Source of the DNA: Rhodoferax sp.
GTDB lineage: Bacteria; Pseudomonadota; Gammaproteobacteria; Burkholderiales; Burkholderiaceae_C
Reading direction: 5' to 3'
DNA length: 64,000 bases
Assembly: GCA_031291295.1 (NCBI GenBank)
Contig: JARLJI010000113.1
Coordinates: 1 to 64,000 of the forward strand
Part shown: positions 10,186 through 59,150 of the stretch, piece by piece
Layout: each line of letters starts with the position of its first letter
Position numbering within the stretch: position 1 is the first letter of the stretch
Notes under the pieces: generated by a model
What the model was told of the DNA's origin: nothing
The model's input: only the letters and a program-made list of their open reading frames with translations
The model's database searches: none
Translations under genes and position numbers: made by a program

Positions 10186-10944
10186 TCACATCCCAAGGTA
10201 CGCGCGGCGCACCTCATCGTTGGAGAGCAGGTCCCGCCCGTTGCCTTGCAACATCACGTTGCCGGTTTCCAGCACGTAGGCGTAGTCGGCCACCGCAAGC
10301 GCGGCGCGCGCATTCTGCTCTACCAGCAGAATCGTCATTCCGCCCTCCTTGAGCTTGACGATGACGCGGAAGATCTCCTGGACGATCAAGGGAGCCAAAC
10401 CCATCGATGGCTCGTCCAGCAGCAACAGGCTCGGCTTTCCCATCAGCGCGCGGCCAAGCGCGAGCATTTGCTGCTGCCCGCCGGAAAGTGTGCCGGCAGG
10501 TAGCAACCGCTTCTCCTTGAGGATGGGAAAGAGCTCGTACGCTTCCTCCAAGCCCCTCGCAACATCAGCGGCCGGGCGCGTATACGCCCCCATGCGCAGG
10601 TTGTCTTCGATTGTCATCGGACCGAACACCTGTCGCCCTTCGGGTGCTTGGCAGATGCCAGCGCGAACACGGGCGTCCGGGCGTGCACTGGTGATAGGTT
10701 TGCCGCGCAGCAAGATACTGCCGTCACTCACAGGCTGGACTCCGGAGACGCAACGCATCAATGTCGTCTTGCCAGCGCCGTTCGCTCCGACGAGAGAAAC
10801 GAGCTGACGGTCCTTCACTACGATCGATACGCCGTGGAGCGCCTCGACGCGGCCGTACCGGGTCTTCAGGCCCTTGAGTTCCAGCACATCGACGTCGGGC
10901 GCTCGCGCGAGGTGCTCTGCAGTAGCGACCGCTTCGTCATCCAT
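10186..10944 (-). CDS. livF: Branched-chain-type ABC transporter ATP-binding protein (LivF-like)
   Basis: GANGAGKTTLMR, LSGGQQQMLALGRALMGKPSLLLLDEPSMGLAP. Confidence 0.92.
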   Translation of the reverse strand: MDDEAVATAEHLARAPDVDVLELKGLKTRYGRVEALHGVSIVVKDRQLVSLVGANGAGKTTLMRCVSGVQPVSDGSILLRGKPITSARPDARVRAGICQAPEGRQVFGPMTIEDNLRMGAYTRPAADVARGLEEAYELFPILKEKRLLPAGTLSGGQQQMLALGRALMGKPSLLLLDEPSMGLAPLIVQEIFRVIVKLKEGGMTILLVEQNARAALAVADYAYVLETGNVMLQGNGRDLLSNDEVRRAYLGM

Positions 10945-10946
10945 AG

Positions 10947-11711
10947 TCAGACCTCCTCGAGCGCCTCGCCGAGATAGGCCGAAATGACGTCTCGATTGGT
11001 TCGGATTTCGTCTGGAGTCCCTTCGGCCAGTCTTTCGCCATGGTCGAGTACGAGGATCCGCTGAGACACGTTCATCACCAGCTTCATATCGTGCTCCACA
11101 AGAACGATCGTGATTCCGGAGCTTGCCAGTTTGGCAACCAATTCCTCGATTTCATGCGTTTCGGTGTGGTTGAGGCCAGCGGCAGGTTCGTCGAGCAGCA
11201 GAATCTTGGGATCGGCGGCGAGTGCTCGCGCAATTTCGAGGCGCTTCAAAGCGCCATAAGGCATTGAGTTGGCATGCGCGCCGATAAACCTTTCGCAGCC
11301 GACGAAGCCCAGCAGCTCGGCGGCCCTCGTGCGGCAAACGCGGTCGGCCGAGCCAAGACCTGGCCAACGAACCATTCCCGCGAACAGACTGCTGTTAAGC
11401 TTGAGATGGGCGCCGACCATTACGTTCTCGATTGCGCTCAGGTTCATGCAGACCTGCAAATTCTGGAACGTCCGGCTCATGCCGCGCTTGGCCAACTCGT
11501 TCGGGGCCACACCGGCAACCTCTTGCCCTTCGAATTCGATGGAACCGCTCGAGGGCGTATAGACGCCCGTGACGAGATTGAACAGCGTCGTCTTGCCTGC
11601 ACCGTTCGGTCCAATGACGGCGTAGACGATCCCCTGCGGCACTTCGAACCCGACATCCCGGACGGCGTGCACGCCACCGAAGCTCTTGGAGAGATTTGAA
11701 ACCTTGAGCAC
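10947..11711 (-). CDS. livG: ABC transporter ATP-binding protein (LivG-like), GTG start
   Basis: GPNGAGKTTLFNLVTGVYTP, YGALKRLEIARALAADPKILLLDEPAAGLNHTE. Confidence 0.9.
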   Translation of the reverse strand: MLKVSNLSKSFGGVHAVRDVGFEVPQGIVYAVIGPNGAGKTTLFNLVTGVYTPSSGSIEFEGQEVAGVAPNELAKRGMSRTFQNLQVCMNLSAIENVMVGAHLKLNSSLFAGMVRWPGLGSADRVCRTRAAELLGFVGCERFIGAHANSMPYGALKRLEIARALAADPKILLLDEPAAGLNHTETHEIEELVAKLASSGITIVLVEHDMKLVMNVSQRILVLDHGERLAEGTPDEIRTNRDVISAYLGEALEEV

Positions 11712-11712
11712 G

Positions 11713-12717
11713 TCAGTTATCTTTCCGATCCAGCAGCTTGGCAAGGCTCGGCACGACGCCACGAGGCAGAAAAATCATCGTGACGATCAGGATGAGGCCG
11801 AAGACGATCGTCTCCCACCCTTCGAAGCGAGTGAGGGCCTGCGGAAGCAGTGTCAGAAGCGCTGCGCCGAACACCGAGCCCCACACCGAAGCCATGCCGC
11901 CGATGACCACCATCGTGACGAGCTCTATCGAATAAGGCAGTGAGGCCAGTCCTGGCGTAATGAAGCCCAAGTAGTGTGCAGAGAGGCTACCTATGACTGC
12001 CGCGACTACCGCTGAGAAGACAAAGACGCGCGTCTTGAACTTCACCGTGTCGATGCCGACGACGCAGGCGGCGATCTCTGATCCATGGAGAGCCTGCAGG
12101 GCACGCCCCGCGGGCGAGTCGATCAGGTTTTGCGCGAGCACGATCATCGCCAGTAAAAGGCCGGTGAAGAGCCAATACCACTGCTTTTCACCCGTCAGGT
12201 TCCAGCCAAACACACTGAAGTTACCGACCGACATGCCGTCCGGCCCCCCAGTCCAAGCGCTTTCATTCGAGATAACGATTGAAACAACGATCCCCAGCCC
12301 CAATGTGGCCATAGCGAGATAATGGCCGCGGAGCCGCAGGATGGCGCTGGCAACCAGCCAGCTGAGAGCAGCAGTTACCATCACCGATGCAAGCAGTGCC
12401 AACCCAGACGGAAGACCAAAACGAGAGGTAAGCACCCCCGACGCGTACGCGCCCACCCCATAAAACGCGGCATGCCCGAGGCTGATTTGGCCAGCATAGC
12501 CCACCAACAGGTTGAGCGCGATCGCGATAACGGCATTGATTGAAATGCGTATCGCGACGTCGGTGAAGTAGGCGTTGGGCAAAACCAATGGCAGCAAGCC
12601 TAGCAGTACGGCAAAGGCCCCGGTCGCAACTAGGCGGCGCGACTGTGCCCGTGCCGTCGGGTCAAGTGCAGTGACTGACGAGGAAGAGCCCTCAGACACG
12701 ATCCGTTTGCCTTGCAC
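11713..12717 (-). CDS. livM: ABC transporter permease (LivM-like)
   Basis: NLLVGYAGQISLGHAAFYGVGAYASGVL. Confidence 0.9.
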   Translation of the reverse strand: MQGKRIVSEGSSSSVTALDPTARAQSRRLVATGAFAVLLGLLPLVLPNAYFTDVAIRISINAVIAIALNLLVGYAGQISLGHAAFYGVGAYASGVLTSRFGLPSGLALLASVMVTAALSWLVASAILRLRGHYLAMATLGLGIVVSIVISNESAWTGGPDGMSVGNFSVFGWNLTGEKQWYWLFTGLLLAMIVLAQNLIDSPAGRALQALHGSEIAACVVGIDTVKFKTRVFVFSAVVAAVIGSLSAHYLGFITPGLASLPYSIELVTMVVIGGMASVWGSVFGAALLTLLPQALTRFEGWETIVFGLILIVTMIFLPRGVVPSLAKLLDRKDN

Positions 12718-13564
12718 CGAACATCCCTTGCGGTCGAACCACGAGGATAAGCAGGACGAGAACGAACGCTACCGCGTCCTTATAGGCGGAAGAAACGTAG
12801 CCGGCAGTCAAGGTCTCAAACAGGCCCAAGAAGAGGCCGCCGAAAACCGCGCCCAGCCCACTGCCGAGACCACCGATCGCCGCAGCGACAAAGCCCTTGA
12901 GCCCCAACATCACTCCCGAGTCGTATGACGTGGTCGAAATAGGCGTAATCAAGACGCCGCCAGCGGCGCCTATGGCCGCCGACAGCACGAAGCTCAAGGC
13001 CAGCACGCGCCGGGTGTCGATCCCCACCAGCTGAGCCGCGAGTCGGTTGTAGGCGGTCGCCAGCATGCCTTTGCCGAGTCGAGTTTGAGTGAAAAAATAG
13101 CCCAGCGCGACAACAAGCAGCGTGGAGAGACCGATCACCCACAGGCTTTGCGGCAGGATCGTCGCGCCAAACGCCGAAAGCGGCGCGTCGCCTGAAAATG
13201 AACGCAATGCGTACGTCCCCTTGCCTAGAGTCACCTCAACCAAGCCCCGCAGGACCATCGATACGCCAATGGTAATGATGATGATGCCCACCACGTCGGC
13301 ATCATGCGCCGGCTCGATGGCGAGTTTTTCCACCACCAAGCCGACGAAGGCGACCACGAGGACACCCAGTACGGCGGCGAGTGGAAGCGGGACTCCTACG
13401 GTCGTCAGGAACGCCGCGGACATGCCCCCCAGCATGATGAATTCGCCTTGCGCGAAATTGATGACCCCGGAAGCGTTGTAGATGATCGAGAAGCCGAGCG
13501 CCGCCAGAGCATAAGTCGCGCCAATGGTGATTCCAGAGAACAGGAGCTGGGTGAACTGCGACAA
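12692..13564 (-). CDS. livH: ABC transporter permease (LivH-like)
   Basis: GATYALAALGFSIIYNASGVINFAQGEFIMLGG. Confidence 0.9.
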   Translation of the reverse strand: MSQFTQLLFSGITIGATYALAALGFSIIYNASGVINFAQGEFIMLGGMSAAFLTTVGVPLPLAAVLGVLVVAFVGLVVEKLAIEPAHDADVVGIIIITIGVSMVLRGLVEVTLGKGTYALRSFSGDAPLSAFGATILPQSLWVIGLSTLLVVALGYFFTQTRLGKGMLATAYNRLAAQLVGIDTRRVLALSFVLSAAIGAAGGVLITPISTTSYDSGVMLGLKGFVAAAIGGLGSGLGAVFGGLFLGLFETLTAGYVSSAYKDAVAFVLVLLILVVRPQGMFGARQTDRV

Positions 13565-13625
13565 TACGGGGGTTCCTGTCTGAAATGTGAGGACGTTTGT
13601 AAAGGAAGATCACTGACATTCTGCT

Positions 13626-14771
13626 TCAGTCGACCAAAGACCACTCGCCCTTCTTGATGTCCATCAACTTGAGGGCGGACTTCGGATCCAGACCCATGTG
13701 ATCAGTCGGAGACATGGTGAAGATGCCGGAGACCCCGACGTAGTCGGAAGTCCGCTCGAGCGCGTCACGCACTTTTTCCTTGTCGGTACTCTTGGCCCGG
13801 CTAACGGCGTTGACATAGAGATCGAGAGCATCAAATGCATAGCCGCCAAACGGAGATGCCTCTTCCTTGTATTTGGCCTCATAGGTTTTTGCAAACGCCA
13901 TGAGCACTTTCTTCTGTGGGTCCGAGTCAGGAAGTTTGTTTGGAATGAGCAGTGCGGTGCCCGAAACCCGGACGCCTTCCGCGGCGGTGCCCGACAAGGT
14001 GATGTATTCGGACGTTGCGACACTGGCCGACTCGTAGTGCGGCGTCTTGATTCCGAGCTGTGCCATGTTCTTGGCAAGCACGACCGCCCCTTGACCGGCC
14101 CCGAACACGAAGATTGCCTGCAGATTCGGAATCGCGCGGATCTTCGCCAGTTGGGCGGTCATGTCAGTGTCCTTGGCTCCGTATGACTCGTCCGCAACGA
14201 TCTCGATGCCGTACTTCAATGCTGCACTTTGTGACTCCTTGCGGCCGGACTGCCCGTAGCCGGTCGTCTCGGAAATGAGCGCGATGCGCTTGATGCCACG
14301 CTTGTTCATATCGGCATAAACCCGGGCAATCTGCATGCGATCGGTGGAGGCAGTCTTGAATACGTAAGGCTTGACCGGCTCGACCACAACGACGCCGCCA
14401 GCGCACGAGATGAAGGGCACCTTGGCCTTTTCGACGATCGGAATCATGGCCATGGACGATCCGGTCGTGGTGCCGCAAAGCACCACATCGACGCCATCGT
14501 TCTCGATCAGCCGCTTGGCGAAGCCATTCGCTTTTGCGGCGTCGCTTCCATCGTCATAGACAAACAATTTGAGCTGCTTGCCGAGGACACCTCCGGACTT
14601 GTTGATCTCCTCGACGCGCATCTGGAGTGCCTTCTCTTGCGGCGCACCCAGATACCCGGCCCCCCCTGTCGTCGACAGCACCGCGCCAACCTTTATGACG
14701 TCTTGCGCCACAGCGGACAAGGTCGCAAGGGTTGCTGCGGCTACAAGGACACTTTTCAGGAACTTACGCAT
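13626..14771 (-). CDS. ABC transporter substrate-binding protein (LivK-like)
   Basis: Signal peptide; IKVGAVLSTTGGAGYLGAPQEKALQMRVEEINKSGGVLGKQLKL. Confidence 0.9.
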   Translation of the reverse strand: MRKFLKSVLVAAATLATLSAVAQDVIKVGAVLSTTGGAGYLGAPQEKALQMRVEEINKSGGVLGKQLKLFVYDDGSDAAKANGFAKRLIENDGVDVVLCGTTTGSSMAMIPIVEKAKVPFISCAGGVVVVEPVKPYVFKTASTDRMQIARVYADMNKRGIKRIALISETTGYGQSGRKESQSAALKYGIEIVADESYGAKDTDMTAQLAKIRAIPNLQAIFVFGAGQGAVVLAKNMAQLGIKTPHYESASVATSEYITLSGTAAEGVRVSGTALLIPNKLPDSDPQKKVLMAFAKTYEAKYKEEASPFGGYAFDALDLYVNAVSRAKSTDKEKVRDALERTSDYVGVSGIFTMSPTDHMGLDPKSALKLMDIKKGEWSLVD

Positions 14772-14950
14772 GATTTGCTTTCTTCTTTACGATTCAAATT
14801 GCGTGCAACGTTTGCCAGTGGCGGGTGAAGCTGTGTGAAACTCCTCTCCCATTGCCAACAGGGTTCAAGTTAGGCACGCTGACAGCAGCGACTTCGACTG
14901 GATCGTAGGCAGTACCCGGCCAGCAGGCTGTCCCCTCGCAGGGGTACAGG

Positions 14951-15140: not shown

Positions 15141-15162
15141 GTCCCCTTCGGCGGGGACAGAC
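15141..15162 (+). promoter_or_regulatory. Operator motif GTCCCC-TTCGGC-GGGGAC-AGAC
   Basis: Exact palindrome, tail toward + gene; 47 bp before the ATG at 15210. Confidence 0.7.
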
Positions 15163-27199: not shown

Positions 27200-27221
27200 G
27201 TCCCCTGACGAGGGGACTGAC
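27200..27221 (+). promoter_or_regulatory. Operator motif GTCCCC-TGACGA-GGGGAC-TGAC in a divergent P450/ferredoxin promoter
   Basis: Exact match, 53 bp before the ferredoxin ATG and 57 bp from the divergent P450 start. Confidence 0.75.
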
Positions 27222-30407: not shown

Positions 30408-30932
30408 TCAGCTGTCGGCTCGGCGCAGCAGCGAGCTGTCGGGCTCGCCCGCCGCGCGCCGGGCGATGAGCTCTTCAGGCACGACGAGGACGCCGATTGG
30501 ATTGCGCGCGAAGGCGTCGCCCTGCATCCAGGCGTTGGTGGCGACCGCATCGGGCAGCGTATCCACCTGGATTTCGATCTCGTTGCCGTCCGGATCGCGG
30601 TAATAGAAGGACAGCGTAGGTCCGTGGTTGATGCAGCGATAGGGCACGATGTCCTGAGCCTTCAGCTCGGCGTACGACTGCAGCATCTCGCCCAGGTTCG
30701 CATACGCGAAAGCCGCGTGATAGAAACCGACAGTGACGCCTTGCGCTCTCGGCGCGTAGGGTTCCAGTGCCACTAGGGCGATGCGGTGATGCTCCTCGTC
30801 GTTGGTGAGGAATGCGATCTTGTCGTTGCGGAAATTGACGCGCGCGCCCAGCAGCTTGCAGTACCAGTCGATGAGCATCTGCAGCTGGTTGGTACGGAAA
30901 ACGCAGTGCGCCAGCCGCGGTGGGGTGATCAT
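30408..30932 (-). CDS. VOC-family (glyoxalase/extradiol-fold) protein
   Basis: RLAHCVFRTNQLQMLIDWYCKLLG..GFYHAAF..YRDPDGNEIEIQVD, retaining H/H/E ligand pattern. Confidence 0.85.
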   Translation of the reverse strand: MITPPRLAHCVFRTNQLQMLIDWYCKLLGARVNFRNDKIAFLTNDEEHHRIALVALEPYAPRAQGVTVGFYHAAFAYANLGEMLQSYAELKAQDIVPYRCINHGPTLSFYYRDPDGNEIEIQVDTLPDAVATNAWMQGDAFARNPIGVLVVPEELIARRAAGEPDSSLLRRADS

Positions 30933-30985: not shown

Positions 30986-31006
30986 GGTAGTCCCCTTCTT
31001 GGGGAC
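30986..31006 (-). promoter_or_regulatory. Operator motif (N5 variant)
   Basis: Minus strand GTCCCC-AAGAA-GGGGAC-TACC, about 55 bp before the VOC gene start. Confidence 0.55.
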
Positions 31007-33168: not shown

Positions 33169-33190
33169 GTCTGTCCCATCCGAGGGGGGC
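33169..33190 (-). promoter_or_regulatory. Operator motif, degenerate
   Basis: Minus strand GCCCCC-CTCGGA-TGGGAC-AGAC, 53 bp before the NIPSNAP start. Confidence 0.45.
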
Positions 33191-34829: not shown

Positions 34830-34905
34830 GACCGGCGTGCGCAAACTCCCCCATGCTAGGCTGGCGCCCCCGGATTCACCGGTGCGAGCGAACAAGGAGG
34901 GGGAC

Positions 34906-35745
34906 ATGGGCCAGAACCGCGAACCTGAGACGACGAGCGAAGACAACGGCGACAATGACGCCGGCGGCGTAAAGGCCGTGGACACCGCGGTGCGCGTGCT
35001 GTCGGCGCTGATTGACATGGGCGCGCCGCTGATGCTCAAGACCGTGGCCGAACGCGCCGAGATGCAGCCGCCCAAGGCCCATCGCTACCTGGTGAGTTTC
35101 TGCCGCAGCGGCCTGGCCGAACGCGACGCCGCCAGCGGCGGCTACCGGTTGGGCCCGCTGGCCGTGCGGCTGGGGCTGGCGGCGCTGCGTCATCTCAACG
35201 TGGTCGCGGTCACCGCACCCGCCCTAGGCCTGCTGCGCGACGAACTCGGCTTCACGGTCGGCCTCGCGGTGTGGGGTGGGGCCGGGCCGACGTTCGTGCG
35301 CTTCGAGGAAACCAACGACGCGCTCATCATCAGCGGGCGCCCCGGGTCGGTCATGCCTATGCTCACATCTTCCACCGGCCGCGTGTTCGGCGCCTACCTG
35401 CCGCGGTGCATCACCGAGCCCTACATCCGCAAGGAACTGGCCGGCACGCTGCACCCCGGGGCGAGCCCAACCAACGGGGCGAAGGCAGCCGGCAAGATGA
35501 GCATCGAGGACGTGGAAGCGATGTTCGCCGAGGTGCGTCAGCACAAGCTCGCGCAGGTCAAGGGCGACGTCAATCCCGGCCTGCACGGCCTGTCGGCACC
35601 GCTGTTCGACCACACCGGCGCCATCGTCGGTGTGATGACCGTGATGGGCTCGGCCGGCCTGATCGACACACGGCTCAACGGCCCCGTCGCACTGGGGTTG
35701 GCGGCCCGGGCAGAGGAGGTCTCCCATCGCATGGGCTGGGCCTGA
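34906..35745 (+). CDS. IclR-family transcriptional regulator
   Basis: VKAVDTAVRVLSALIDMGAPLMLKTVAERAEMQPPKAHRYLVSF; effector domain with MPMLTSSTGRVFGAYLP. Confidence 0.9.
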   Translation: MGQNREPETTSEDNGDNDAGGVKAVDTAVRVLSALIDMGAPLMLKTVAERAEMQPPKAHRYLVSFCRSGLAERDAASGGYRLGPLAVRLGLAALRHLNVVAVTAPALGLLRDELGFTVGLAVWGGAGPTFVRFEETNDALIISGRPGSVMPMLTSSTGRVFGAYLPRCITEPYIRKELAGTLHPGASPTNGAKAAGKMSIEDVEAMFAEVRQHKLAQVKGDVNPGLHGLSAPLFDHTGAIVGVMTVMGSAGLIDTRLNGPVALGLAARAEEVSHRMGWA

Positions 35746-35806: not shown

Positions 35807-35899
35807 CTAATTATGTTTTCAAGGCGGTTCAGCAAACCGACTGCGAGTCCAGTCGGGAAGGGCCGTCCTATGTATATGTATTTCTCAGGAGACAAGCAC

Positions 35900-36763
35900 A
35901 TGATGACCGTGATGATTCAGGACCCCGTGGCCCCGGGCAGCACCCCGAGCAATTCGCTGACGCAGCTGGTGGAATCCATCGGCCACGACCGCTTCGGCCC
36001 GGCCCTGGCCCATTACCTCCACCACCTGTGCGGCGCGGACCACTTCGCGGCGTTCCGGCTCGGTCCGGACGACCTGAGGGAAGTCGCCGCGTGCTGCGTC
36101 AAGCCAGAGCACACCGCACGTGATCGGGTCGAGCGCTATGTCGGCGGGTGGTGGAAGCGCGATCCAGCCATGAACGAAGCGCAGCGCTGCCTGCAGGGGC
36201 CAGCACTCAGCAGCGTCATCCATGTGGACTTCAGCGACGACGGTGATACCGACCTGCGCATGCGCGTCTATCCAGACGTGCGCGACCGCATCCTGCTGTG
36301 CGGCCGCAGCGCCAACGCCGCCTTCGGGCTGAGCGTGTTGCGCTCTGACCCGCACTCCCCGTTCGCCGGCGACGCCATCGCAAAACTGGGCCAATGCGCC
36401 GACCTGCTGGTGGCAATGCTAGGCAAGCATGCCGACGTCTGCCAGAGCCGGCCCAACGCGGCGCAGTCGCTCACCGAGCTGCCGGACATCGAAAGCTGCA
36501 TCACCGCCACCAGCGACCTGCCGCGGCGAGAGGCCCAAGTCTGCGCGCGCATCCTGTACGGGCTGTCATCCGTCGGTATCGCGCTGGACCTGTCGGTGAG
36601 CGAGGAAACCGTCAAGACCTATCGCAAGCGCGCCTATCAGCGGCTGACCATCGGCTGCGAACGGGAACTGCTGACCTGGTACCTGGCACGCTGGAGCCCC
36701 TGGATCAGCCGGCGCTTCGAACCGCTGGCCGCATCGGCAGCCGCTCCCACAGCGTTGCACTAA
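35900..36763 (+). CDS. LuxR-family (solo) transcriptional regulator
   Basis: C-terminal LPRREAQVCARILYGLSSVGIALDLSVSEETVKTYRKRAYQRLTIGCEREL HTH; SD aggaga before ATG 35900. Confidence 0.85.
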   Translation: MMTVMIQDPVAPGSTPSNSLTQLVESIGHDRFGPALAHYLHHLCGADHFAAFRLGPDDLREVAACCVKPEHTARDRVERYVGGWWKRDPAMNEAQRCLQGPALSSVIHVDFSDDGDTDLRMRVYPDVRDRILLCGRSANAAFGLSVLRSDPHSPFAGDAIAKLGQCADLLVAMLGKHADVCQSRPNAAQSLTELPDIESCITATSDLPRREAQVCARILYGLSSVGIALDLSVSEETVKTYRKRAYQRLTIGCERELLTWYLARWSPWISRRFEPLAASAAAPTALH

Positions 36764-37053: not shown

Positions 37054-37075
37054 GTCCCCCAACGCGGGGACTGAC
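37054..37075 (+). promoter_or_regulatory. Operator motif GTCCCC-CAACGC-GGGGAC-TGAC
   Basis: Exact match, 47 bp before the hemerythrin start. Confidence 0.75.
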
Positions 37076-37122
37076 CACCCGGCAAGGCGATGCCCCAATA
37101 GAGGCATGCTTACATCCCATTC

Positions 37123-37683
37123 ATGCAACCTCCGGCCATTACGCTGATCAAGCAGGAGCACCAAGCGCTCACCACTGTGCTGCGCGCGCTGCGCCAGTCG
37201 GTGAAAAGGGTCGGCAAATCGGGCCAGCCGCCGGACTTCGACGGGCTGCGCGCGATGCTGTTCTACCTGGACGAGATGCCGGCCCGCGTACATCACGCCA
37301 ACGAGAGTGAACTGCTGTTTCCGCGCATTTACGAGCGCTGCCCCGCGCTGCGACCGGTGCTTGACCGGCTGCAGGCGGAGCACAGCCGCGGCGAATCGGC
37401 GGTGCGCGAGTTGGAACACGCCCTGACGGGCTGGCAGATCATGGGCAACGAGCGCCGCGAAGCCTTCGAGTTGCTGCTACACGCCTATTCCGAAGATTAC
37501 CTCGGCCACATGGAGGTCGAAGAAAGCTATGTGCTGCCGGTAGCGATGGACTATCTATCCCCCGCTGACTGGAGCGAGCTCGGCGCCGCCTTCACGCGCC
37601 AGCGCGGCGCCCTGGCGGAATCCATAGCTCGCGGCCACCGCGAACTGTTCGAGCGGATCGCATCGAACCAATCCCTCTCCTGA
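37123..37683 (+). CDS. Hemerythrin-domain protein
   Basis: LIKQEHQALTTVLRALR; HHANESELLFPRIYERCP; DYLGHMEVEESYVLPVA; H/E-rich. Confidence 0.85.
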   Translation: MQPPAITLIKQEHQALTTVLRALRQSVKRVGKSGQPPDFDGLRAMLFYLDEMPARVHHANESELLFPRIYERCPALRPVLDRLQAEHSRGESAVRELEHALTGWQIMGNERREAFELLLHAYSEDYLGHMEVEESYVLPVAMDYLSPADWSELGAAFTRQRGALAESIARGHRELFERIASNQSLS

Positions 37684-39770: not shown

Positions 39771-40487
39771 TCAGGCGATAGCGCCAGCCCGCCCGAAGTA
39801 GTGATCGGCGATCACCGGATCACTAGCCAACTCGCCCGCGTCGCCTTCGTGCACGACGCGGCCCTGCTCCAGCACCGCTGCGCGGTGCGCCGTCTGCAGC
39901 GCCAGCTTCGCATTCTGCTCAACCAGCAGGATTGTGAGTCCCTCGCGGTTGAGACGCTGCAGCGCGTTGAACACTTCCTTCACGATCACGGGCGCGAGGC
40001 CCAGACTGGGCTCGTCCAGCAGCAGCACCTTGGGCCGGCCCATCAGCGCGCGACCGATGGCCAGCATCTGCTGCTGGCCGCCGGACAGCGAACCCGACAT
40101 CTGGTGGCAGCGATCGGCCAACACCGGAAAGAGTGCATGCACGCGCTCCAGGTCGGCCGCGTCGCTTCCGCGCACGCCGGCGGCCTGGCGCCCCAGCTCG
40201 AGGTTCTCCGCCACCGACAGGGGTGCGATCACGCGCCGACCTTCCGGTACCTGGATAATGCCGGCGCGCGCGCGCTTGTGCGCGGGCATCTTGCCCAGCG
40301 ACCGGCCCTCGAAGAAGATTTCGCCGCTGCAAGGCACGATACCCGACAGCGCATTGACCAGGCTCGACTTGCCCGCGCCGTTGGGGCCGATGAGTGCGAA
40401 GATCTCACCTTTCTTCACCGTCAGGCTGACGCCGCGCAGCGCCTGAATGCCGCGGTAGTGCAGGTCGAGGCTGCGTATTTCCAGCAT
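39771..40487 (-). CDS. livF: LivF-like ABC ATPase
   Basis: GPNGAGKSSLVNALSG; LSGGQQQMLAIGRALMGRPKVLLLDEPSLGLAP. Confidence 0.92.
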   Translation of the reverse strand: MLEIRSLDLHYRGIQALRGVSLTVKKGEIFALIGPNGAGKSSLVNALSGIVPCSGEIFFEGRSLGKMPAHKRARAGIIQVPEGRRVIAPLSVAENLELGRQAAGVRGSDAADLERVHALFPVLADRCHQMSGSLSGGQQQMLAIGRALMGRPKVLLLDEPSLGLAPVIVKEVFNALQRLNREGLTILLVEQNAKLALQTAHRAAVLEQGRVVHEGDAGELASDPVIADHYFGRAGAIA

Positions 40488-40490
40488 TAG

Positions 40491-41249
40491 TCAGGCTCCC
40501 AGGTAGGCATCGACGACGACGGGATTTCGGCCCACGGCTTCAGGTTCGCCCTCGGCGATCAGCCGGCCGGATGCCACCACGTACAAGTGGGAGCATAGCG
40601 ACATCACGAAGCGCATGTTGTGTTCGATCAGCAGCACCGCCACGCCGTCGGCCGCGACGCTGCGAAAAATGCCGGCAAGGCTTTCGGCCTCGGCATCGTT
40701 CATGCCAGCGACCGGCTCGTCCAGCAGCAGCAAGCGCGGCCGCATCGCCAGCGCCCGCATCATCTCGATGCGCCGCTGATGGCCGTAAGACAGTCCGCCA
40801 GCGCGGTATTGCGCCAACGCCGCCATGCCGAAGCGCTCCAGCAACTGCATGGCATCGCCCTTCAGGCGCGCCGTCTCGGCGCGCGCGGATGGCAGGCCCA
40901 ACAGGTTCGCCCACAGGCTCGATTGCTCATGCCGGTGGAAGCCCGCGAGCACGTTGCCGAGCACGCTCGCATCCGGCACCAGACGAATATTCTGGAAGGT
41001 GCGGGCCACGCCGGCCCGCGCCAGTTCGGGCGCCTCAGCGCGCGAGACGTCCTTGCCGTCCAGCAGCACCCGGCCCGACGTGAGGTGCAGCAACCCCGTG
41101 ATGAGGTTGACCACGGTGGTCTTACCGGCGCCATTGGGGCCGATAAGGCCGGTGATCTGCCCGGCCGGAACGGACAGGCTGAGGCCGTCGACGGCGGGCA
41201 CGCCGCCGAAATGGCGTGCCACGTTTTCCAGAACCAGGGTGGCGCTCAT
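40491..41249 (-). CDS. livG: LivG-like ABC ATPase
   Basis: GPNGAGKTTVVNLITG; YGHQRRIEMMRALAMRPRLLLLDEPVAGMN. Confidence 0.92.
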   Translation of the reverse strand: MSATLVLENVARHFGGVPAVDGLSLSVPAGQITGLIGPNGAGKTTVVNLITGLLHLTSGRVLLDGKDVSRAEAPELARAGVARTFQNIRLVPDASVLGNVLAGFHRHEQSSLWANLLGLPSARAETARLKGDAMQLLERFGMAALAQYRAGGLSYGHQRRIEMMRALAMRPRLLLLDEPVAGMNDAEAESLAGIFRSVAADGVAVLLIEHNMRFVMSLCSHLYVVASGRLIAEGEPEAVGRNPVVVDAYLGA

Positions 41250-42196
41250 GGCCGCACTCCCGCCTGGTTGCCGGACACCGGCAGGCCTGGCTTAGGGATG
41301 GAGGGTGGTTCAGGCGGTGTCGAAGTTTCCGCCAACGCGCGGGCCGCCGCTCGCCTCAGCCGCCGGTCGCGCATGGTGGCGATGAAGGTATCGGCCACGC
41401 CGCGCGGCAGGTAGATGATCACGACCATCAACAGGACGCCCTGCACGACGTTGCGGTAGGCCGCGAACACGCGAAACAATTCTGGCAGGGACACCAGCAC
41501 GACGGCACCCACCAGCGCGCCCCACACCGTGGTGCGGCCGCCCAGCACCACCATCGCCAGAGCCGCGACCAGCAGGCCGAACCCATAGTCATTGGGTGTA
41601 ATGGCATAACTGCTGGTCGCGTGCAGCCCGCCCGCCAGGCCCGCCAGCGCGCCCGACAGGATGAAGGCGAAGCGCTGGTAGCGCGGCACGTGAATGCCCA
41701 GCGAGACGGCCACGGTTTCGTCTTCGCGGATCACGTCCATAGCGCGCCCCAGGCTGAAGCGGCCCATGGCCACCAGCACCAGCACCAGCACCACCACGAT
41801 CACGAACAGCGTGCCGGTACCCGCCACATGGGGAATGTCATTGATGCCGAGCGCCCCGTGCGTCAGGCTTTCCCAGTTCTCGGTTGCCGACAACACGATT
41901 TGCACGAAAGCCAGCGTCGCCACGGCCTGGAACACGCCACGCAGCCTCGCCAGGGGTAGCGCCAGCAGCGCGCCCGCGGCCGTGCCCAGCAGCGCGCCGG
42001 CGGCGACGGCGGCGACCGGCGGCCAGCCTGCGGCGGTGATCAGGATCGCCGTGCAGTAGGCGCCGAGCGCCGCGAAACCCGCGCTGCCCAGAGAAAAGAC
42101 GCCGGCGCGCAGCACCACGTATTGACTCATGGCCAGCATCGAATTGACCAGGATGTGGTCAAACAGCGACTGGTAGGTGTAGAAGAAGCTCATCAT
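41246..42196 (-). CDS. livM: LivM-like permease
   Basis: VFSLGSAGFAALGAYCTAIL; ATG overlap with livG. Confidence 0.88.
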   Translation of the reverse strand: MMSFFYTYQSLFDHILVNSMLAMSQYVVLRAGVFSLGSAGFAALGAYCTAILITAAGWPPVAAVAAGALLGTAAGALLALPLARLRGVFQAVATLAFVQIVLSATENWESLTHGALGINDIPHVAGTGTLFVIVVVLVLVLVAMGRFSLGRAMDVIREDETVAVSLGIHVPRYQRFAFILSGALAGLAGGLHATSSYAITPNDYGFGLLVAALAMVVLGGRTTVWGALVGAVVLVSLPELFRVFAAYRNVVQGVLLMVVIIYLPRGVADTFIATMRDRRLRRAAARALAETSTPPEPPSIPKPGLPVSGNQAGVRP

Positions 42197-43086
42197 GCCC
42201 GCTGCACCCGCATGGCTGCGGTGGGCTGGCCGAAGATGCCGGTCGGCCGCACGACGATAACGACGAACAGGGCCAGGAACACGATCGCCTCGGAAACCCC
42301 CGACGAGATGTAGGCGATGCTCAGCGTCTGCACCAGCCCGATCGCCAGCCCGGCAATCAGAGCCCCGGGAATGCTGCCCAGGCCGCCGAGAATGATGATG
42401 ACAAAGGCGCGCAACAACAGCGGCTCGCCCATCGCGAAGTGGACCGAGTTGAACACCAGGCCGATTAGCACGCCCGCCATGCCGGCCAGAGCGCCCGAAA
42501 TGAAAAACACCTGCATGTTGACCGGGCCCGGGTTGATGCCCAGCAGGCGCGACGTCTGCTCGGAATAGGCGACAGCGCGGATGCGCTGACCGAAGCCGGT
42601 ACGGTACAGGTAGAACATCAGCGCCATCACCAGCACGATCACCAGCCCGACGATCACCAGTTGCAGCAGCTGGATGCGCAAGTCAAAGACGTTGAAGACG
42701 ACCACCGGGAAGGCGCCGAACGGAAAACGCATGATGGCGGTGTTGGAAACCTGCTGCGCCAGGGCCAGCAGGATCAGGTTGGCGCCGATGGACGAAACGA
42801 TGGCGGAGAACTCGGACGCGCCGCGCCGCCGCAACGGGCGAAAAGCGAAGAGGTCCAATGCCACCGAGACCAGCCCGCCGGCCACCATGCCCGCCATCAG
42901 GGCCACCACGATCGGCGCATCCAGCACGTTGACGGCATACAGCCCCGCGAAGGCGCCCCACATGAACACGGAGCCGTGGGCCATGTTCAAAATATGGTTG
43001 ACGCCGAACAGCAGCGTGAAACCGAGCGCAAACAGGCCATAGACGCTGCCCACGACAATTCCGTTGAGTATTTGTTGCATTAGCAT
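42193..43086 (-). CDS. livH: LivH-like permease
   Basis: MLMQQILNGIVVGSVYGLFALGFTLLFGVNHILNMAHGSVFMWGAF. Confidence 0.9.
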   Translation of the reverse strand: MLMQQILNGIVVGSVYGLFALGFTLLFGVNHILNMAHGSVFMWGAFAGLYAVNVLDAPIVVALMAGMVAGGLVSVALDLFAFRPLRRRGASEFSAIVSSIGANLILLALAQQVSNTAIMRFPFGAFPVVVFNVFDLRIQLLQLVIVGLVIVLVMALMFYLYRTGFGQRIRAVAYSEQTSRLLGINPGPVNMQVFFISGALAGMAGVLIGLVFNSVHFAMGEPLLLRAFVIIILGGLGSIPGALIAGLAIGLVQTLSIAYISSGVSEAIVFLALFVVIVVRPTGIFGQPTAAMRVQRA

Positions 43087-43116
43087 AGTGGCAGGATAGG
43101 AGGCCAACGTTTTCCG

Positions 43117-43172
43117 GTCAGTCCCCCTGCCCGGGGACGGGTCTTCCCTTGTCCCGGGGCAGGGGGACTGAC
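43117..43172. promoter_or_regulatory. Two mirrored operator motifs in the divergent livH/P450 promoter
   Basis: 43117-43138 minus: GTCCCC-GGGCAG-GGGGAC-TGAC; 43151-43172 plus: GTCCCG-GGGCAG-GGGGAC-TGAC. Confidence 0.8.
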
Positions 43173-43237
43173 GGACCTGACGCCCGTGGCTAGTCTGACG
43201 GTAGCCGATACCGACCCTCGCGGCCAAGGAGATTCCA

Positions 43238-44509
43238 TTGCGACCACTTTCCACAGAAGCTTCGTCTCAGGCAGAAGGGCCCATCACCCCGGCCAGCGGC
43301 CGATTCGACCCCTTCGATCCGACCTATGTCCTTGATCCCTACCCCATCCTGGCCGGGCTACGCGCGAGCGAGCCGGTATTCTTCTCGCCGGTCGTCGGCT
43401 CCTGGGTGGTGACGCGGTTCGAAACCGTCAAGGCCGTGCTGCGCGACGCGCAGCACTACTCCGCGATGCTCGCGTCGGACCCGCTGACGCCGCTGTGCCC
43501 TCACGCCCGCTCCATTTTTGCCGACGCCGGCTTCAACGTGCCGCCACTGCTCGTCAATAATGACCCTCCTTCGCATACCCACTACCGTGCCTTCTTCGGC
43601 GCGCCGCTGCAGCGCGAGCGCATGCAGACCTTGAAGCCCTTCATCCAGGAAACAGTCGATGCCTACTTAGACCGTTTGGCGGCGGGACCCAATCCGGCGG
43701 ACCTGGTGGCGGGGCTCACATGGGACGTGCCCGCGCTAGTGCTGTTCAAGCTGCTGGGCGTACCGGCGCAGGACGTGCAGCAGGTCAAGAACTGGGCCTC
43801 AAGCCGCGTGGTGATGACCTGGGGCCGTCCGACCGAAGCTGAGCAGGTGTCGCTCTCCACGGGCGCTGTGGAGTACTACCGCTATTCCCAGGCACTGGTA
43901 CAGCAGAAATTCGAGAACCCAGCCGACGATTACCTGAGCGACCTGATCCGACTGCGCGCCGACGACGATGCCCAGGCCACGCTGCACGAGATCGCGGCCA
44001 TCGCCTTCAACCTGCTGTTCGCCGGCCACGAGACCACCTCCAGCGCCGCGGCCAACATGTTCAAGGCGCTGCTGCCGGATCGCGCCCTATGGGGCAAGGT
44101 GTGCCGCGGCGAACAAGCTGCGGCGCCCGTGGTCGATGAAGCGCTGCGGATGGATCCGCCGGTGCAAGCCTGGCGCCGCCAAGCCAAGGAGGCCGTGGTG
44201 CTGGACGGGGTCTCGATCCCGGCGGGCGGGCGCCTGCTGCTCGCGTTCGCCTCGGCCAACCACGATCCGGACCAGTTCCCATCGCCCGACGCCTTCATCC
44301 CGGGCCGGCGCAATGCGCTGCAGCAGGTCTCCTTCGGCGCGGGCACGCACTTCTGCCTGGGCGCGCCGCTGGCGCGGCTCGAACTCGAGGTGACGCTCCA
44401 GCGCGTAGCCGCTCGCCTGCCGGGGCTTGCGCTGGTGCCCGGCCAGGAATTCCCCTACACCCCGAACACGTCCTTTCGCGCCCTGCGCCGACTGATGGTG
44501 ACCTGGTAA
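43238..44509 (+). CDS. Cytochrome P450
   Basis: Heme motif SFGAGTHFCLGAPLARLELE; LLFAGHETTSSA I-helix. Confidence 0.93.
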   Translation: MRPLSTEASSQAEGPITPASGRFDPFDPTYVLDPYPILAGLRASEPVFFSPVVGSWVVTRFETVKAVLRDAQHYSAMLASDPLTPLCPHARSIFADAGFNVPPLLVNNDPPSHTHYRAFFGAPLQRERMQTLKPFIQETVDAYLDRLAAGPNPADLVAGLTWDVPALVLFKLLGVPAQDVQQVKNWASSRVVMTWGRPTEAEQVSLSTGAVEYYRYSQALVQQKFENPADDYLSDLIRLRADDDAQATLHEIAAIAFNLLFAGHETTSSAAANMFKALLPDRALWGKVCRGEQAAAPVVDEALRMDPPVQAWRRQAKEAVVLDGVSIPAGGRLLLAFASANHDPDQFPSPDAFIPGRRNALQQVSFGAGTHFCLGAPLARLELEVTLQRVAARLPGLALVPGQEFPYTPNTSFRALRRLMVTW

Positions 44510-47612: not shown

Positions 47613-47634
47613 GTCCCCGGAGAAGGGGACAGAC
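47613..47634 (+). promoter_or_regulatory. Operator motif GTCCCC-GGAGAA-GGGGAC-AGAC
   Basis: Exact palindromic halves, 79 bp before the LivK ATG. Confidence 0.7.
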
Positions 47635-47713: not shown

Positions 47714-48844
47714 ATGAAACTTCTTCGCAGGCAGGCTATCGCAAGCGCCGCTCTCATCGCCGTGTGCGGTTTCGCCATGGCCCAGAACCGCGAGATCCCC
47801 GTCGGCGTCTTCAATGCCATGACGGGCAACTATGCCTTCGGCGGCGTGCCCATCCAAAACGGCATGAAGCTGGCGCTGGAAGAAGCCAATGCGGCCGGCT
47901 TGCCCGGCGGCGCGAAGTTCAAGATCTTCGAAGGCGACACCGCCGGCGAAAAGGGCCAGACCATCAGCCTGATCAACCAGTTCGTCAAGCGCGACAACGT
48001 GATGCTGATCCTCGGCCCCACGATCAGCGGCAGCGCCCTGGCCGGAGCGCCGGTAGCAAACGACCTGAAGGTACCCATTCTCGCGATCGGCAGCTCCCCC
48101 GGCATTCCGGCCACCGGCCCCTGGGCATTCAAGATCCAGGCCACGCCCGTGGACATCATGGACTTCCTCGGCAAGCTGAGCGTGGAAAAGCTGGGTATCA
48201 AGCGCGTCATCACGGCCATTGACCAGAGCAATGACGGCTACGTCGGCCAGAAGGACGCGCTGGTCAATTACCTGAAGGGCGCAGGCGTCACCATCGTGGC
48301 CGATGAGAAGTTCGTCGCGTCCGAAAACAACTTCCTGGCGCTGGCGACCAAGATCGCAACAGCACAGACTGATGCCGTCTTCATCGCCGCACCCGCGGAA
48401 GTGGCGGCCAACTTGATCATCCAGATCCGCCAGGCCGGAATCGACCCCAAGGTGAAGTTCATCGGCCCCTCGACTTTCGGCTCGCTGGGCTTCATCAAGG
48501 CGGGTGGCAAGGCAGTGGAAGGCACGTACATCGTGTCCGACTACTCGCCCAACGCCAAGTCGTCGCAGAACGTCGCCTTCATCAGCGCGTATAAGGCTAG
48601 GTACAAGGCCACACCGGACAACTGGGCCGCGATGGGCTACGCGCTGGGAACGGTCGCGGTCCAGGCAGTGCGCAATGCCGGGCCCAATCCCGACCGCACC
48701 AAGATCCGCGACGCGATGGCCAAGCTCAACAAGGTACCGACGGTGCTGGGCAACGGCACCTGGAGCGTGGACGACAAGCGCAACCCAAGTTATGGCGGCG
48801 TACTGCTGCAGGTCAAGAACGGCAACTTCGTCACGGTAGAGTGA
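47714..48844 (+). CDS. LivK-like ABC substrate-binding protein
   Basis: Signal peptide; IPVGVFNAMTGNYAFGGVPIQNGMKLALEEANAAG. Confidence 0.9.
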   Translation: MKLLRRQAIASAALIAVCGFAMAQNREIPVGVFNAMTGNYAFGGVPIQNGMKLALEEANAAGLPGGAKFKIFEGDTAGEKGQTISLINQFVKRDNVMLILGPTISGSALAGAPVANDLKVPILAIGSSPGIPATGPWAFKIQATPVDIMDFLGKLSVEKLGIKRVITAIDQSNDGYVGQKDALVNYLKGAGVTIVADEKFVASENNFLALATKIATAQTDAVFIAAPAEVAANLIIQIRQAGIDPKVKFIGPSTFGSLGFIKAGGKAVEGTYIVSDYSPNAKSSQNVAFISAYKARYKATPDNWAAMGYALGTVAVQAVRNAGPNPDRTKIRDAMAKLNKVPTVLGNGTWSVDDKRNPSYGGVLLQVKNGNFVTVE

Positions 48845-55559: not shown

Positions 55560-55580
55560 GTCAGTCCCCATTGGGGGGAC
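55560..55580 (-). promoter_or_regulatory. Operator motif (N5 variant)
   Basis: Minus strand GTCCCC-CCAAT-GGGGAC-TGAC, 58 bp before the ferredoxin start. Confidence 0.7.
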
Positions 55581-55581
55581 G

Positions 55582-56628
55582 TCAGCGTGCCGTGCGGCGC
55601 TCCTTGACGCGCCGCACGGCCTTGCGCAACAGGCCGACGAAGCCGTCGGGCATCACGAACATCGAGAGAATCAGGAAACCAGCGAAGATGGCGGAGGGAG
55701 CCGACTTGGATATCTGGTCCGCCACGTTCGGGACGAACTGGATGAAGGCCGCGCCGACCAGGGCTCCCGAAATCGTCCCGAGACCGCCGACCACCACGCC
55801 GACCAAGAAAAACACCGACACGAACATGCCGAAGCTGTCGGGCGCCACGAATGCGGTGGCGACGGCTCCGAGCGAGCCCGCGACACCGGTGTAGAGCGCA
55901 CTGACGCCGAAGGTCATGGCCTTCACGTAGGGAACGTTGATTCCCATGGCCGAGGCTGCCATGGGCTGCTCCCGGATCGCCACCGTGGCGCGCCCGAGGC
56001 GGCCGCGCAGCAGGTTCCATGCGGCGAGGAACAGCAGCGCCGCAATCGCAAGCACCACCATGTAGAGCCACTGGTCGGAAGACAGCTTCCATCCGAAGGG
56101 CGCCTCGGGCTTGAGCAGCGAGATGCCCTGCACGCCGCCGGTCCACGGCTCGAGCGCCTGGTGCTTGAGCAGTTGCGGCGTCGCCAGCGCCAGCGCGAAC
56201 GTGGCGAGCGCGAGGTAGTGCCCTTTCAGCCGCAACGCGGGCCAGCCAAACAGAAAGCCGAACACGAAGCAGACCGCCGCCGACACCGGCAGGGTCGCCC
56301 ACCAGGGGAAGCCCGCATGCTCCATGAGCACCGCAGTGACATAGGCGCCCAGGGCATAGATCGCCCCGTGCCCCAGCGAGAGCTGGCCGTTGTAGCCGAC
56401 CAGGATGTTCAGGCCCAGCACGGCGATCGCGGTGATGAGCATCATGGTCACGAGGAACAGCCGGTAGTCGCTCAGCACGAACGGCATCGCCAGCGCCAGC
56501 GCCAGCAGGGCGGCAAGGCCGGCCCGTTGCCAGGTGCCGACTGCAAGGCGGGACGGCGCGATGCCGGGCGCCGCTGCGGCAGCGGATATTTCGCCGTCGG
56601 TTCTCACCGGTAAGGTCGACATGCTCAT
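55582..56628 (-). CDS. livM: LivM-like permease
   Basis: NILVGYNGQLSLGHGAIYALGAYVTAVLMEH. Confidence 0.9.
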   Translation of the reverse strand: MSMSTLPVRTDGEISAAAAAPGIAPSRLAVGTWQRAGLAALLALALAMPFVLSDYRLFLVTMMLITAIAVLGLNILVGYNGQLSLGHGAIYALGAYVTAVLMEHAGFPWWATLPVSAAVCFVFGFLFGWPALRLKGHYLALATFALALATPQLLKHQALEPWTGGVQGISLLKPEAPFGWKLSSDQWLYMVVLAIAALLFLAAWNLLRGRLGRATVAIREQPMAASAMGINVPYVKAMTFGVSALYTGVAGSLGAVATAFVAPDSFGMFVSVFFLVGVVVGGLGTISGALVGAAFIQFVPNVADQISKSAPSAIFAGFLILSMFVMPDGFVGLLRKAVRRVKERRTAR

Positions 56629-57497
56629 ACCCGCACCACCAGCCTGCGGCCGAACAGGCCCGAGGGCCGAATCAGCAAGACACCCACAATGAGCACGAGC
56701 GCGACCGACAGCTTGAGCTCGGTGCCCACCACGTAGGTGCCCGCCAGGTTCTCGACCACGCCCACGATCAGGCCACCGGCCACCGCGCCCCAGGGATTAT
56801 CAATTCCGCCAAGCAGCGCCCCGGCAAAGGCGTAGATCAGCACGCCGCCCATCATGTTGGGGTCGAGAAACACGATAGGCGCAACCATCAGCCCGGCCAC
56901 CGAACCGATCAGCGCAGACAGGCCCCAGCCAAGCGACAGCATCAGCGACACGGGGATGCCGGCCAAGCGGGAGGACACCGGGTTCTCGGCAGAGGCTCGC
57001 ATCGCCAGGCCCATCCGGGTGAAGCGCAGGAAGGCATAGAGAATCACCATGACCAGCAGGACCACGGCGATGGTGCCCATCTCATGACCGGAGATCAGCG
57101 CGGTGCCGAAAGGTGCCCTTTGCGGGAACGGGCTGGGGAAGGTCTCGAGCTGATGGCCGAAGATCCAGCCGGCCAGAGAGTTGATGCCAATTAAGAGGCC
57201 AATGAACACCATGATCACCGACAGTTCCGGCGCGTCCTTGAGCGGCCGCAGAATCAGCCGCTCGATCAGAAAGCCGCCGACGAAGCCGAATGCCAGGGTC
57301 ACCGCCACGGCGACCCAATACGGCAGGCCGGCCTTGAGCAGCATGAAGGCGATGAAGGTGGAGAACATCGCCATCTCGCCCTGCGCGAAATTGATGTGGT
57401 GAGTGGACTGGTAGATCATCACCAGCGCCAGCGCGAGGCAGGCGTAGATTCCGCCCATCGCGATGCCGGAGGCGATCTGCTGCAGCAAGTTGTACAT
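56625..57497 (-). CDS. livH: LivH-like permease
   Basis: GIAMGGIYACLALALVMIYQSTHHINFAQGEMAMFSTF. Confidence 0.9.
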   Translation of the reverse strand: MYNLLQQIASGIAMGGIYACLALALVMIYQSTHHINFAQGEMAMFSTFIAFMLLKAGLPYWVAVAVTLAFGFVGGFLIERLILRPLKDAPELSVIMVFIGLLIGINSLAGWIFGHQLETFPSPFPQRAPFGTALISGHEMGTIAVVLLVMVILYAFLRFTRMGLAMRASAENPVSSRLAGIPVSLMLSLGWGLSALIGSVAGLMVAPIVFLDPNMMGGVLIYAFAGALLGGIDNPWGAVAGGLIVGVVENLAGTYVVGTELKLSVALVLIVGVLLIRPSGLFGRRLVVRV

Positions 57498-57510
57498 GGA
57501 TGCGGTTCCT

Positions 57511-58224
57511 TCAGAATCCGAGGTAGGAGCGGCGGATCTGCTCGTCGTCGCGCAGAGCCTGCGCCGTGCCGGACATGACGGTGCTGCCGGTCTCGAGCAG
57601 ATAGGCATGGTCGGCAAGGTCGAGCGCGCGCGCGACGTTCTGCTCCACGAGCAGGATGCTGACGCCATCCTTTTCGTTGATCACGCGCATGATCTGGAAG
57701 ATCTCCTGGATGATCAGCGGCGCGAGCCCGAACGAGGGCTCGTCCAGCAGCAGCAGCTTTGGCCGCTGCATCAGCGCCCTTCCGATCGCCAGCATCTGCT
57801 GTTCGCCGCCGGAAAGAGTGCCCGCCTGCTGCGTGCGGCGCTCGCGCAAGCGCGGGAAGTAGGTGTACATACGCTCGAAATCGGCTTCGGCCTGTTTCCG
57901 TTCGCGGCGCAGGTACGCGCCGACGCGCAGGTTCTCCTCCACCGTGAGGTTGACCAGCGTGCCGCGACCGTCGGGCACGTGCGCGATGCCGAGCGCGGCG
58001 ATCTTCTCGGTGGCAAGGCCGTCGATCCGTTGTCCGGCGAAGCGGATCTCGCCAGCCGTGCGGATCAGGCCGCTGAGCGCACGCAGCGTCGTCGTCTTGC
58101 CCGCGCCATTGGCGCCGAGGATGGTTGTGATGCCGCCGACGGCCACCTCGAAGTTGATCCCCTTGAGCGCCCGGGTAGCGCCGTAGAAGGCTTCCACGTT
58201 CTTCGCTTCCAGCAAGGCAGCCAT
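57511..58224 (-). CDS. livF: LivF-like ABC ATPase
   Basis: GANGAGKTTTLRALSG; LSGGEQQMLAIGRALMQRPKLLLLDEPSFGLAP. Confidence 0.92.
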   Translation of the reverse strand: MAALLEAKNVEAFYGATRALKGINFEVAVGGITTILGANGAGKTTTLRALSGLIRTAGEIRFAGQRIDGLATEKIAALGIAHVPDGRGTLVNLTVEENLRVGAYLRRERKQAEADFERMYTYFPRLRERRTQQAGTLSGGEQQMLAIGRALMQRPKLLLLDEPSFGLAPLIIQEIFQIMRVINEKDGVSILLVEQNVARALDLADHAYLLETGSTVMSGTAQALRDDEQIRRSYLGF

Positions 58225-59015
58225 CAGGCGGTCTCCGTTCCGAGATAGGCGCGAACCACCTCATCGTGCGCCTGCACATGCGCCGGCGGACCGTCGGCGA
58301 TCTTGCGGCCGAAATTCATCGCGATCACCTGGTCGGAGACGCGCATCACCAGATTCAGGTGGTGCTCGACCAGCAGCACGGTGACGCGGAAACGGTCGCG
58401 TACGTCTATGATCAGCTGACGCAAGCCGTCCACTTCCTCGTGGTTCAGGCCGGCGGCAGGCTCGTCCAGCAGCAGCAACTTGGGATCGGCCACCAGGGCG
58501 CGTGCCATCTCGACGCGCTTGCGCGTGCCGAACGACAGGTTGCGTACCGGCGTGTCGGCCGCGTCGCGCAGCGACAGTAGTTCCAGCAGCTGATCCGTAC
58601 GCACTCCAACCTGCTCCTCCTCGCGGCTGACCGAGGGCAGCCGCAGCGCGTTGGCGATGTAGCCGCTGGCAGTGCGGCAGTGGCGCCCCACCATGACGTT
58701 CTCGCGCACCGTCATCGCCGGGAACAGCGCGACGTTCTGGAAGGTCCGTCCGATCCCGCAGGCGGCGATCGCATGCTGGGGCTTGGCCAGCAGGTCCTCG
58801 CCCTCGAAAAGGATCGCGCCCGCGTGCGGCGTGTACAGACGGGAGAGGCAGTTGAACAGCGTCGTCTTGCCAGCGCCGTTGGGGCCGATGACGCCGCAGA
58901 TCTGGCCACGCTGGACCTCGAACGAAATGCCATCGAGAGCGACGATGCCCCCGAAGCGCACCGACAGGTCGGTCACGCGCAGCAAGGAATCGGCAGTGGA
59001 TTGGGGCGTAGTCAT
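58224..59015 (-). CDS. livG: LivG-like ABC ATPase
   Basis: MTTPQSTADSLLRVTDLSVRFGGIVALDGISFEV; GPNGAGKTTLFNCLSRLYTPHAG. Confidence 0.92.
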   Translation of the reverse strand: MTTPQSTADSLLRVTDLSVRFGGIVALDGISFEVQRGQICGVIGPNGAGKTTLFNCLSRLYTPHAGAILFEGEDLLAKPQHAIAACGIGRTFQNVALFPAMTVRENVMVGRHCRTASGYIANALRLPSVSREEEQVGVRTDQLLELLSLRDAADTPVRNLSFGTRKRVEMARALVADPKLLLLDEPAAGLNHEEVDGLRQLIIDVRDRFRVTVLLVEHHLNLVMRVSDQVIAMNFGRKIADGPPAHVQAHDEVVRAYLGTETA

Positions 59016-59083
59016 AAGTTTTCGCGCAGCCCGGTCGGACCAAGCGGGGAATGGCAGCCAGTATTCGCTGGCGCGAGCTGCTC

Positions 59084-59150
59084 GTCTGTCCCCTGCCGGT
59101 GGTACACGGCGCCGGCGGGGAAATCCTTGTCCCTTGCGATGGGGACTGAC
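59084..59150. promoter_or_regulatory. Two oppositely oriented operator motifs in the divergent livG/P450 promoter
   Basis: 59084-59105 minus: GTACCA-CCGGCA-GGGGAC-AGAC; 59129-59150 plus: GTCCCT-TGCGAT-GGGGAC-TGAC. Confidence 0.7.

Follow-up and report, generated by a model that had tools for sequence, protein, structure and literature searches.

What is the long inverted repeat that lies between the divergent livH and P450 genes of this Rhodoferax sp. contig: a single palindromic element shared by both genes, or a pair of elements of which each gene owns one? In the window (the whole 64,000-nt stretch of DNA analysed) an initial annotation had described inverted motif copies at this locus, and a repeat search recovers them at exactly 43117-43172, as two arms of 22 nt (GTCAGTCCCCCTGCCCGGGGAC at 43117-43138 and GTCCCGGGGCAGGGGGACTGAC at 43151-43172) that are separated by a 12-nt gap and complementary at 21 of 22 pairs (95%), with one mismatch. 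The motif also exceeds chance, as GTCAGTCCCC-N7-GGGAC with ≤3 mismatches matches the window 17 times against 2.8 expected, a count reached by no shuffle. Beyond what had been described, the contig holds at least 12 further copies, each followed, in the direction of its head, by a −10 hexamer at the constant distance of 22 nt.

Alignment of the copies yields a box GTCCCC-N5/6-GGGGAC, then a head (TGAC, AGAC or ATAC), a G+C-rich stretch and [TG]AnnnT exactly 22 nt past GGGGAC. At this very offset xAnnnT is found in 24 of 27 boxes from four genomes, orthologous sites across genomes not being independent, and 2000 shuffles of these boxes average 0.96 at 22 nt with a top count of 7 at any offset. 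The 27 boxes were picked without regard to the −10, which lies outside the site search; the head was included in that search and its near-invariance is partly by construction. One box, at 37054, is without a good −10. The head sits at the −35 position (cTGACn, with a 17-nt spacer to the −10), and the −35 elements are poor (cAGAC, cATAC). Assigning −12 to −7 to the −10 places the box at −52 to −35 with its centre at −43.5, as an 18-bp dyad adjoining or overlapping the −35 at a set distance from the −10, which is a class II promoter feature. A centre near −43.5 is the class II activator position of the LuxR/TraR type, the lux box itself lying near −42.5. Judged by this layout, each half is very probably a class II activator-dependent promoter centred near −43.5, with the LuxR-type protein encoded at 35813-36763 as its most likely binder. 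Between livH and P450 the two promoters mirror each other (TATCCT and TAGTCT), and each head faces its own gene at the −35 place with the −10 at the fixed distance, in agreement with the earlier proposal of a directional operator with one copy per gene. A sigma-70 promoter scan of the region detected nothing, because the −35s are poor.

The same elements are retained in relatives. Caenimonas soli S4 has an orthologous cluster (P450 89% identical), and across ten orthologous boxes the left half-site is conserved at 95%, the right half-site at 100%, the head at 93% and the −10 at 92%, compared with 66% for the box spacer, 64% for the −35/−10 spacer and 46% and 55% for the flanks. About ten such boxes are spread across the 40-kb homologous cluster of genome G442, and in Variovorax paradoxus VAI-C, whose cluster was located later via the LuxR protein, boxes precede the ferredoxin, wrbA-IclR-LuxR and hemerythrin-monooxygenase genes, corresponding to window boxes 27200, 33173 and 37054 (Table 1). 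The same box stands ahead of livHMGF, livJ, the second liv set and the P450 and ferredoxin genes, which bears out the suggested link of solute uptake with P450 expression, and its position at 33173-33190 upstream of the regulator genes predicts autoregulation.

Table 1. Predicted promoter elements and candidate regulator genes (window coordinates)
Feature	Position	Strand	Remarks
livHMGF activator box GTCCCC-GGGCAG-GGGGAC	43121..43138	-	predicted; kept at C. soli L026:9855-9872
TGAC head of livH box, -35-like (cTGACc, 17 nt before -10)	43117..43120	-	
livH promoter -10 TATCCT	43093..43098	-	22 nt past box; livH ATG 43086 6 nt on, predicted leaderless
P450-operon activator box GTCCCG-GGGCAG-GGGGAC	43151..43168	+	predicted; kept at C. 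soli L026:9887-9903
TGAC head of P450 box, -35-like	43169..43172	+	
P450 promoter -10 TAGTCT	43191..43196	+	same hexamer in C. soli
LuxR-type regulator (GerE), predicted to bind all boxes	35813..36763	+	true start probably near 35903
IclR-type regulator, rival binder	34837..35745	+	always paired with LuxR gene in close relatives
weak box GTACCC..GGGGAC, -10 TACGAT	14930..14947	-	faces livK-like gene 13626-14771
box, -10 GACCAT	15141..15158	+	faces ferredoxin reductase gene
box, -10 GACAGT	27200..27217	+	counterparts in C. soli and V. paradoxus stand ahead of 2Fe-2S ferredoxin gene
box GTCCCC-N5-GGGGAC, -10 TAGCAT	30990..31006	-	faces VOC protein 30408-30932
box GTCCCA..GGGGGC, -10 TATGCT	33173..33190	+	ahead of ADH-flavodoxin-IclR-LuxR genes
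box, -10 position CCCAAT (kept as xCCAAT)	37054..37071	+	ahead of hemerythrin-FAD monooxygenase operon
box, -10 GATACT	47613..47630	+	ahead of livJ binding-protein gene 47714-48844
box, -10 GACATT	55564..55580	-	ahead of ferredoxin-extradiol dioxygenase genes
second mirrored pair, left box, -10 AATACT	59088..59105	-	faces second liv set
second mirrored pair, right box, -10 TACAGT	59129..59146	+	faces P450/FAD dehydrogenase genes

An ATG lies exactly 6 nt past the −10 at 20 of 65 boxes, and 5-7 nt past it at 25 of 65, with a shuffle maximum of 6 at any offset; the 65 boxes were collected without using the ATG position, and orthologous sites among them are not independent. Most ATGs at 6 nt begin the expected gene (livH, ADH, ferredoxin, DUF3237, P450 or hydrolase). 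Because of this spacing at 20 of the 65 boxes, transcription is predicted to begin on the A of the ATG, implying leaderless mRNAs, that of livH included. The P450-side transcript carries a leader, with ribosome site AAGGAG and a TTG start at 43238. At the 37054 box, at its counterparts in C. soli and V. paradoxus and at three G442 boxes the ATG at the predicted +1 opens a frame of just 11-20 codons (window 37054-37150, L056:16396, L082:20858 and G442 29905, 33805 and 37910), possibly a leaderless leader peptide.

Two candidates for the protein that reads the boxes are encoded side by side, an IclR-type and a LuxR-type regulator. Pfam GerE (PF00196) is present in all 21 members of the LuxR-type alignment (A1), the island protein among them. 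Its AlphaFold2 model (pLDDT 87) matches TraR, QscR, RhlR, SdiA and the ligand domain of VqsR in Foldseek, and because of these matches we assign it as a LuxR-type receptor, with perhaps a pathway compound as ligand. Pfam Autoind_bind gave a marginal match (E=0.09) in 1 of the 21 members, and LuxI (PF00765) had no match in three genomes, as it had none in the control genomes either. Orthologues accompanied by the same boxes are found in C. soli (80%), G442 (68-69%) and V. paradoxus (72%).

If the boxes were instead operators of the IclR-type regulator, the LuxR-type protein would act elsewhere. Binding near −40 is also a property of IclR activators, PcaU and PobR for example, and the IclR and LuxR genes are linked on our contig, in C. 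soli, in both G442 copies and in V. paradoxus; since both genes are conserved there, linkage within the close cluster cannot choose between them. More distant LuxR homologues (about 25-37% identical) make the IclR assignment unlikely, as boxes of the same architecture stand beside LuxR genes in loci with no IclR match, in same-family genomes as well as in Burkholderia, Cupriavidus and Sphingobium. These boxes, usually in a divergent intergenic region, read GTCATC-N6-GATGAC, GTCATC-N6-GAGGAC or GTCCTC-N6-GAGGAC with the −10 at 22 nt. Round the distant homologues there are 24 matches to a GTCNNC-type box followed at 22 nt by a −10 (two of them belonging to the close homologue L053) against 1.7 in shuffles, and a half-site-agnostic scan of 33 distant LuxR loci gives 20 at 22 nt against 0-8 at other offsets from 14 to 31. 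A Sphingobium plasmid encodes a 46% LuxR homologue and carries GTCCC-type boxes ahead of P450 and hydrolase genes, IclR being annotated nowhere in 40 kb of a gene table that is incomplete, and the homologues of Burkholderia plantarii and Cupriavidus metallidurans (31-34%) are likewise accompanied by such boxes. Several homologues (e.g. L031, L039-L041 and L050) have no recognisable box within 1.5 kb. In most members the recognition helix reads RKRAY with GGGGAC and RNRAF with GATGAC; a one-residue specificity code is not clear, being confounded by L049 (RKRAF with GATGAC) and by phylogeny.

Two further LuxR homologues, L028 (C. soli C7:103888) and L032 (G418), are 53-56% identical over the DNA-binding part only and have no recognisable box nearby. 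In G442 the IclR-LuxR pair is present twice within about 30 kb (C11:189931-190779 and C11:220205-221053), both times near boxes.

The boxes might also be operators at which a repressor, either this LuxR protein or a different one, blocks RNA polymerase, for which a site beside the −35 would serve too. We regard this as improbable: the −35s are poor, and the box-to-−10 register is one and the same in every genome, as class II activation requires, where a repressor would be expected to tolerate variable positions.

A single long cruciform or RNA hairpin across 43117-43172, acting as a shared terminator or attenuator, is far less probable still. The 22-nt arms are able to pair, spacers included, and the complementary spacers CTGCCC/GGGCAG had been offered as an argument in the initial annotation. 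That argument fails in C. soli, where the spacers of the same boxes are CCCCAA and GGGAG and do not pair. The idea of a ~56-bp palindrome as one fixed element fares no better, as outward pairs elsewhere (59088/59129, 68081/68122 and two in G442) are set at ~20 to 46 bp centre-to-centre and the present pair at 30 bp. The promoter layout is the same at boxes that stand alone, and a search of the livH/P450 region for a terminator-like site found none. Long pairing is not maintained across relatives, which refutes the hairpin; because the distances differ between outward-facing pairs each box is its own unit, and 43117-43172 is, as read from these comparisons, two independent boxes. A plasmid DNA search with the intergenic region gave no match.

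About 14 such promoters are intergenic in a catabolic island at about 15-69 kb of the contig, whose genes comprise branched-chain-type (liv) transporters, several P450s, and ferredoxin, NIPSNAP, SnoaL, SDR, FAD and extradiol-dioxygenase genes. With about 67-70% the island has a higher G+C content than either flank (about 56-61%), and because of this difference it was probably acquired. The assembly to which it belongs (4.9 Mb in 265 contigs, contamination estimated at 5.55%) has all its clean copies on this contig (81,327 bp) and none elsewhere, and among 398 further genomes of the order five have a single copy apiece. The pattern GGGGACWKAC-N18-KANNNT matches 25 times in three genomes (15.3 Mb), 24 of these in the homologous cluster, against 1 for the reversed control. 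Among the single-copy matches L022 (G323) adjoins a LuxR homologue and fits; in L021, an ambiguous case, the copy is found where a weak LuxR homologue has its 3′ end; L020, L023 and L024 have no LuxR link and look like chance. The initial annotation had raised the prospect of a mobile repeat, and a REP/BIME-type repeat carried in with the island has a next to negligible probability: its tetranucleotide head, hairpin and outward pairs are indeed REPIN-like and every copy is on one island, but the boxes are not dispersed (missing from the rest of three genomes, rare in the 398 relatives), stand ahead of genes and differ in spacer copy by copy, and the fixed −10 and the syntenic positions kept in other genera rule it out.

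We therefore keep to class II activation by the LuxR-type protein. A dimer of this island-encoded protein would most likely occupy GTCCCC-N5/6-GGGGAC, where it would adjoin and overlap the poor −35 (the TGAC head) and touch RNA polymerase at the −10 22 nt downstream. Of the back-to-back pair, one promoter would transcribe livHMGF to the left and the other the P450-SnoaL-P450-NIPSNAP operon to the right; ~12 further copies would turn on the remaining catabolic island, the regulator operon included. At several promoters, livH among them, the ATG would coincide with the transcription start, giving leaderless mRNAs.

This arrangement resembles class II activation of the LuxR/TraR type in its GerE helix-turn-helix, the QS-receptor-like fold of the N-domain, an 18-bp dyad abutting the −35 and a fixed distance to the −10. 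In contrast to those systems the neighbours here are catabolic genes, and the half-site is GTCCCC where the lux box has a CTGT-type one. LuxR solos, and TeiR of Comamonas testosteroni among the catabolic LuxR-type regulators, are similar in that an orphan LuxR-type protein stands beside catabolic genes in the Comamonadaceae. DosR and OsdR (NarL-type) likewise place a GerE-type helix-turn-helix on a GGGAC-like half-site, OsdR sites being of the kind GGGGACGATCGTCCCC (PMC5069765), but they are two-component response regulators with the opposite half-site order (GGGAC-N-GTCCC as against GTCCC-N-GGGAC). CrbR, a LuxR-family regulator of acetate genes, requires the imperfect inverted repeat of its ACTU motif for activation in one regulon (PMC5715377); the motif (TACTACCATCGTCGAAT) is unrelated to our box and CrbR, too, is a two-component response regulator. 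A paper on a Variovorax isoflavone cluster (PMC11069340) makes no mention of LuxR or IclR, and a search of the accessible literature found no description of a GTCCCC/GGGGAC LuxR box or of a LuxR-DUF3237 pair. On balance we lean towards an undescribed LuxR-solo clade of Alpha- and Betaproteobacteria with a QS-receptor fold, probably sensing catabolic substrates, that runs mobile degradation islands via rigidly spaced class II boxes, the box drifting with the recognition helix (GATGAC, GAGGAC, GGTGGC, GGGGAC) and many of the mRNAs being leaderless with the ATG at +1.

Such a reading turns a palindrome into a predicted regulon of one regulator, ~14 promoters and one island for uptake and P450-based degradation. 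Any genome can be scanned with this promoter rule, a box followed after 22 nt by a −10 and often after a further 6 nt by the ATG, to reveal targets and true start codons, and because half-sites and recognition helices form a natural paired series, DNA specificity in the LuxR family is open to direct testing. Leaderless mRNAs in a LuxR regulon, as predicted here, would be unusual.

High GC3 marks the catabolic block (window 15000-64000 and contig positions 64001-76000), and transposase-like ORFs occur near 73-76 kb of the contig, both in keeping with probable acquisition of the island. Three distinct branched-chain-type ABC transporter sets (window 10186-14771, 39771-43086 and 55582-59100) lie round the one catabolic block, which suggests several related substrates. 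Finally, DUF3237 genes are repeatedly found right behind LuxR-type boxes (L033-L035, L036, L043, L044 and L052; L019:4171-4644), their identity being Pfam-confirmed for L033, L034 and contig position 68171, and this recurrence suggests a functional LuxR-DUF3237 pairing.
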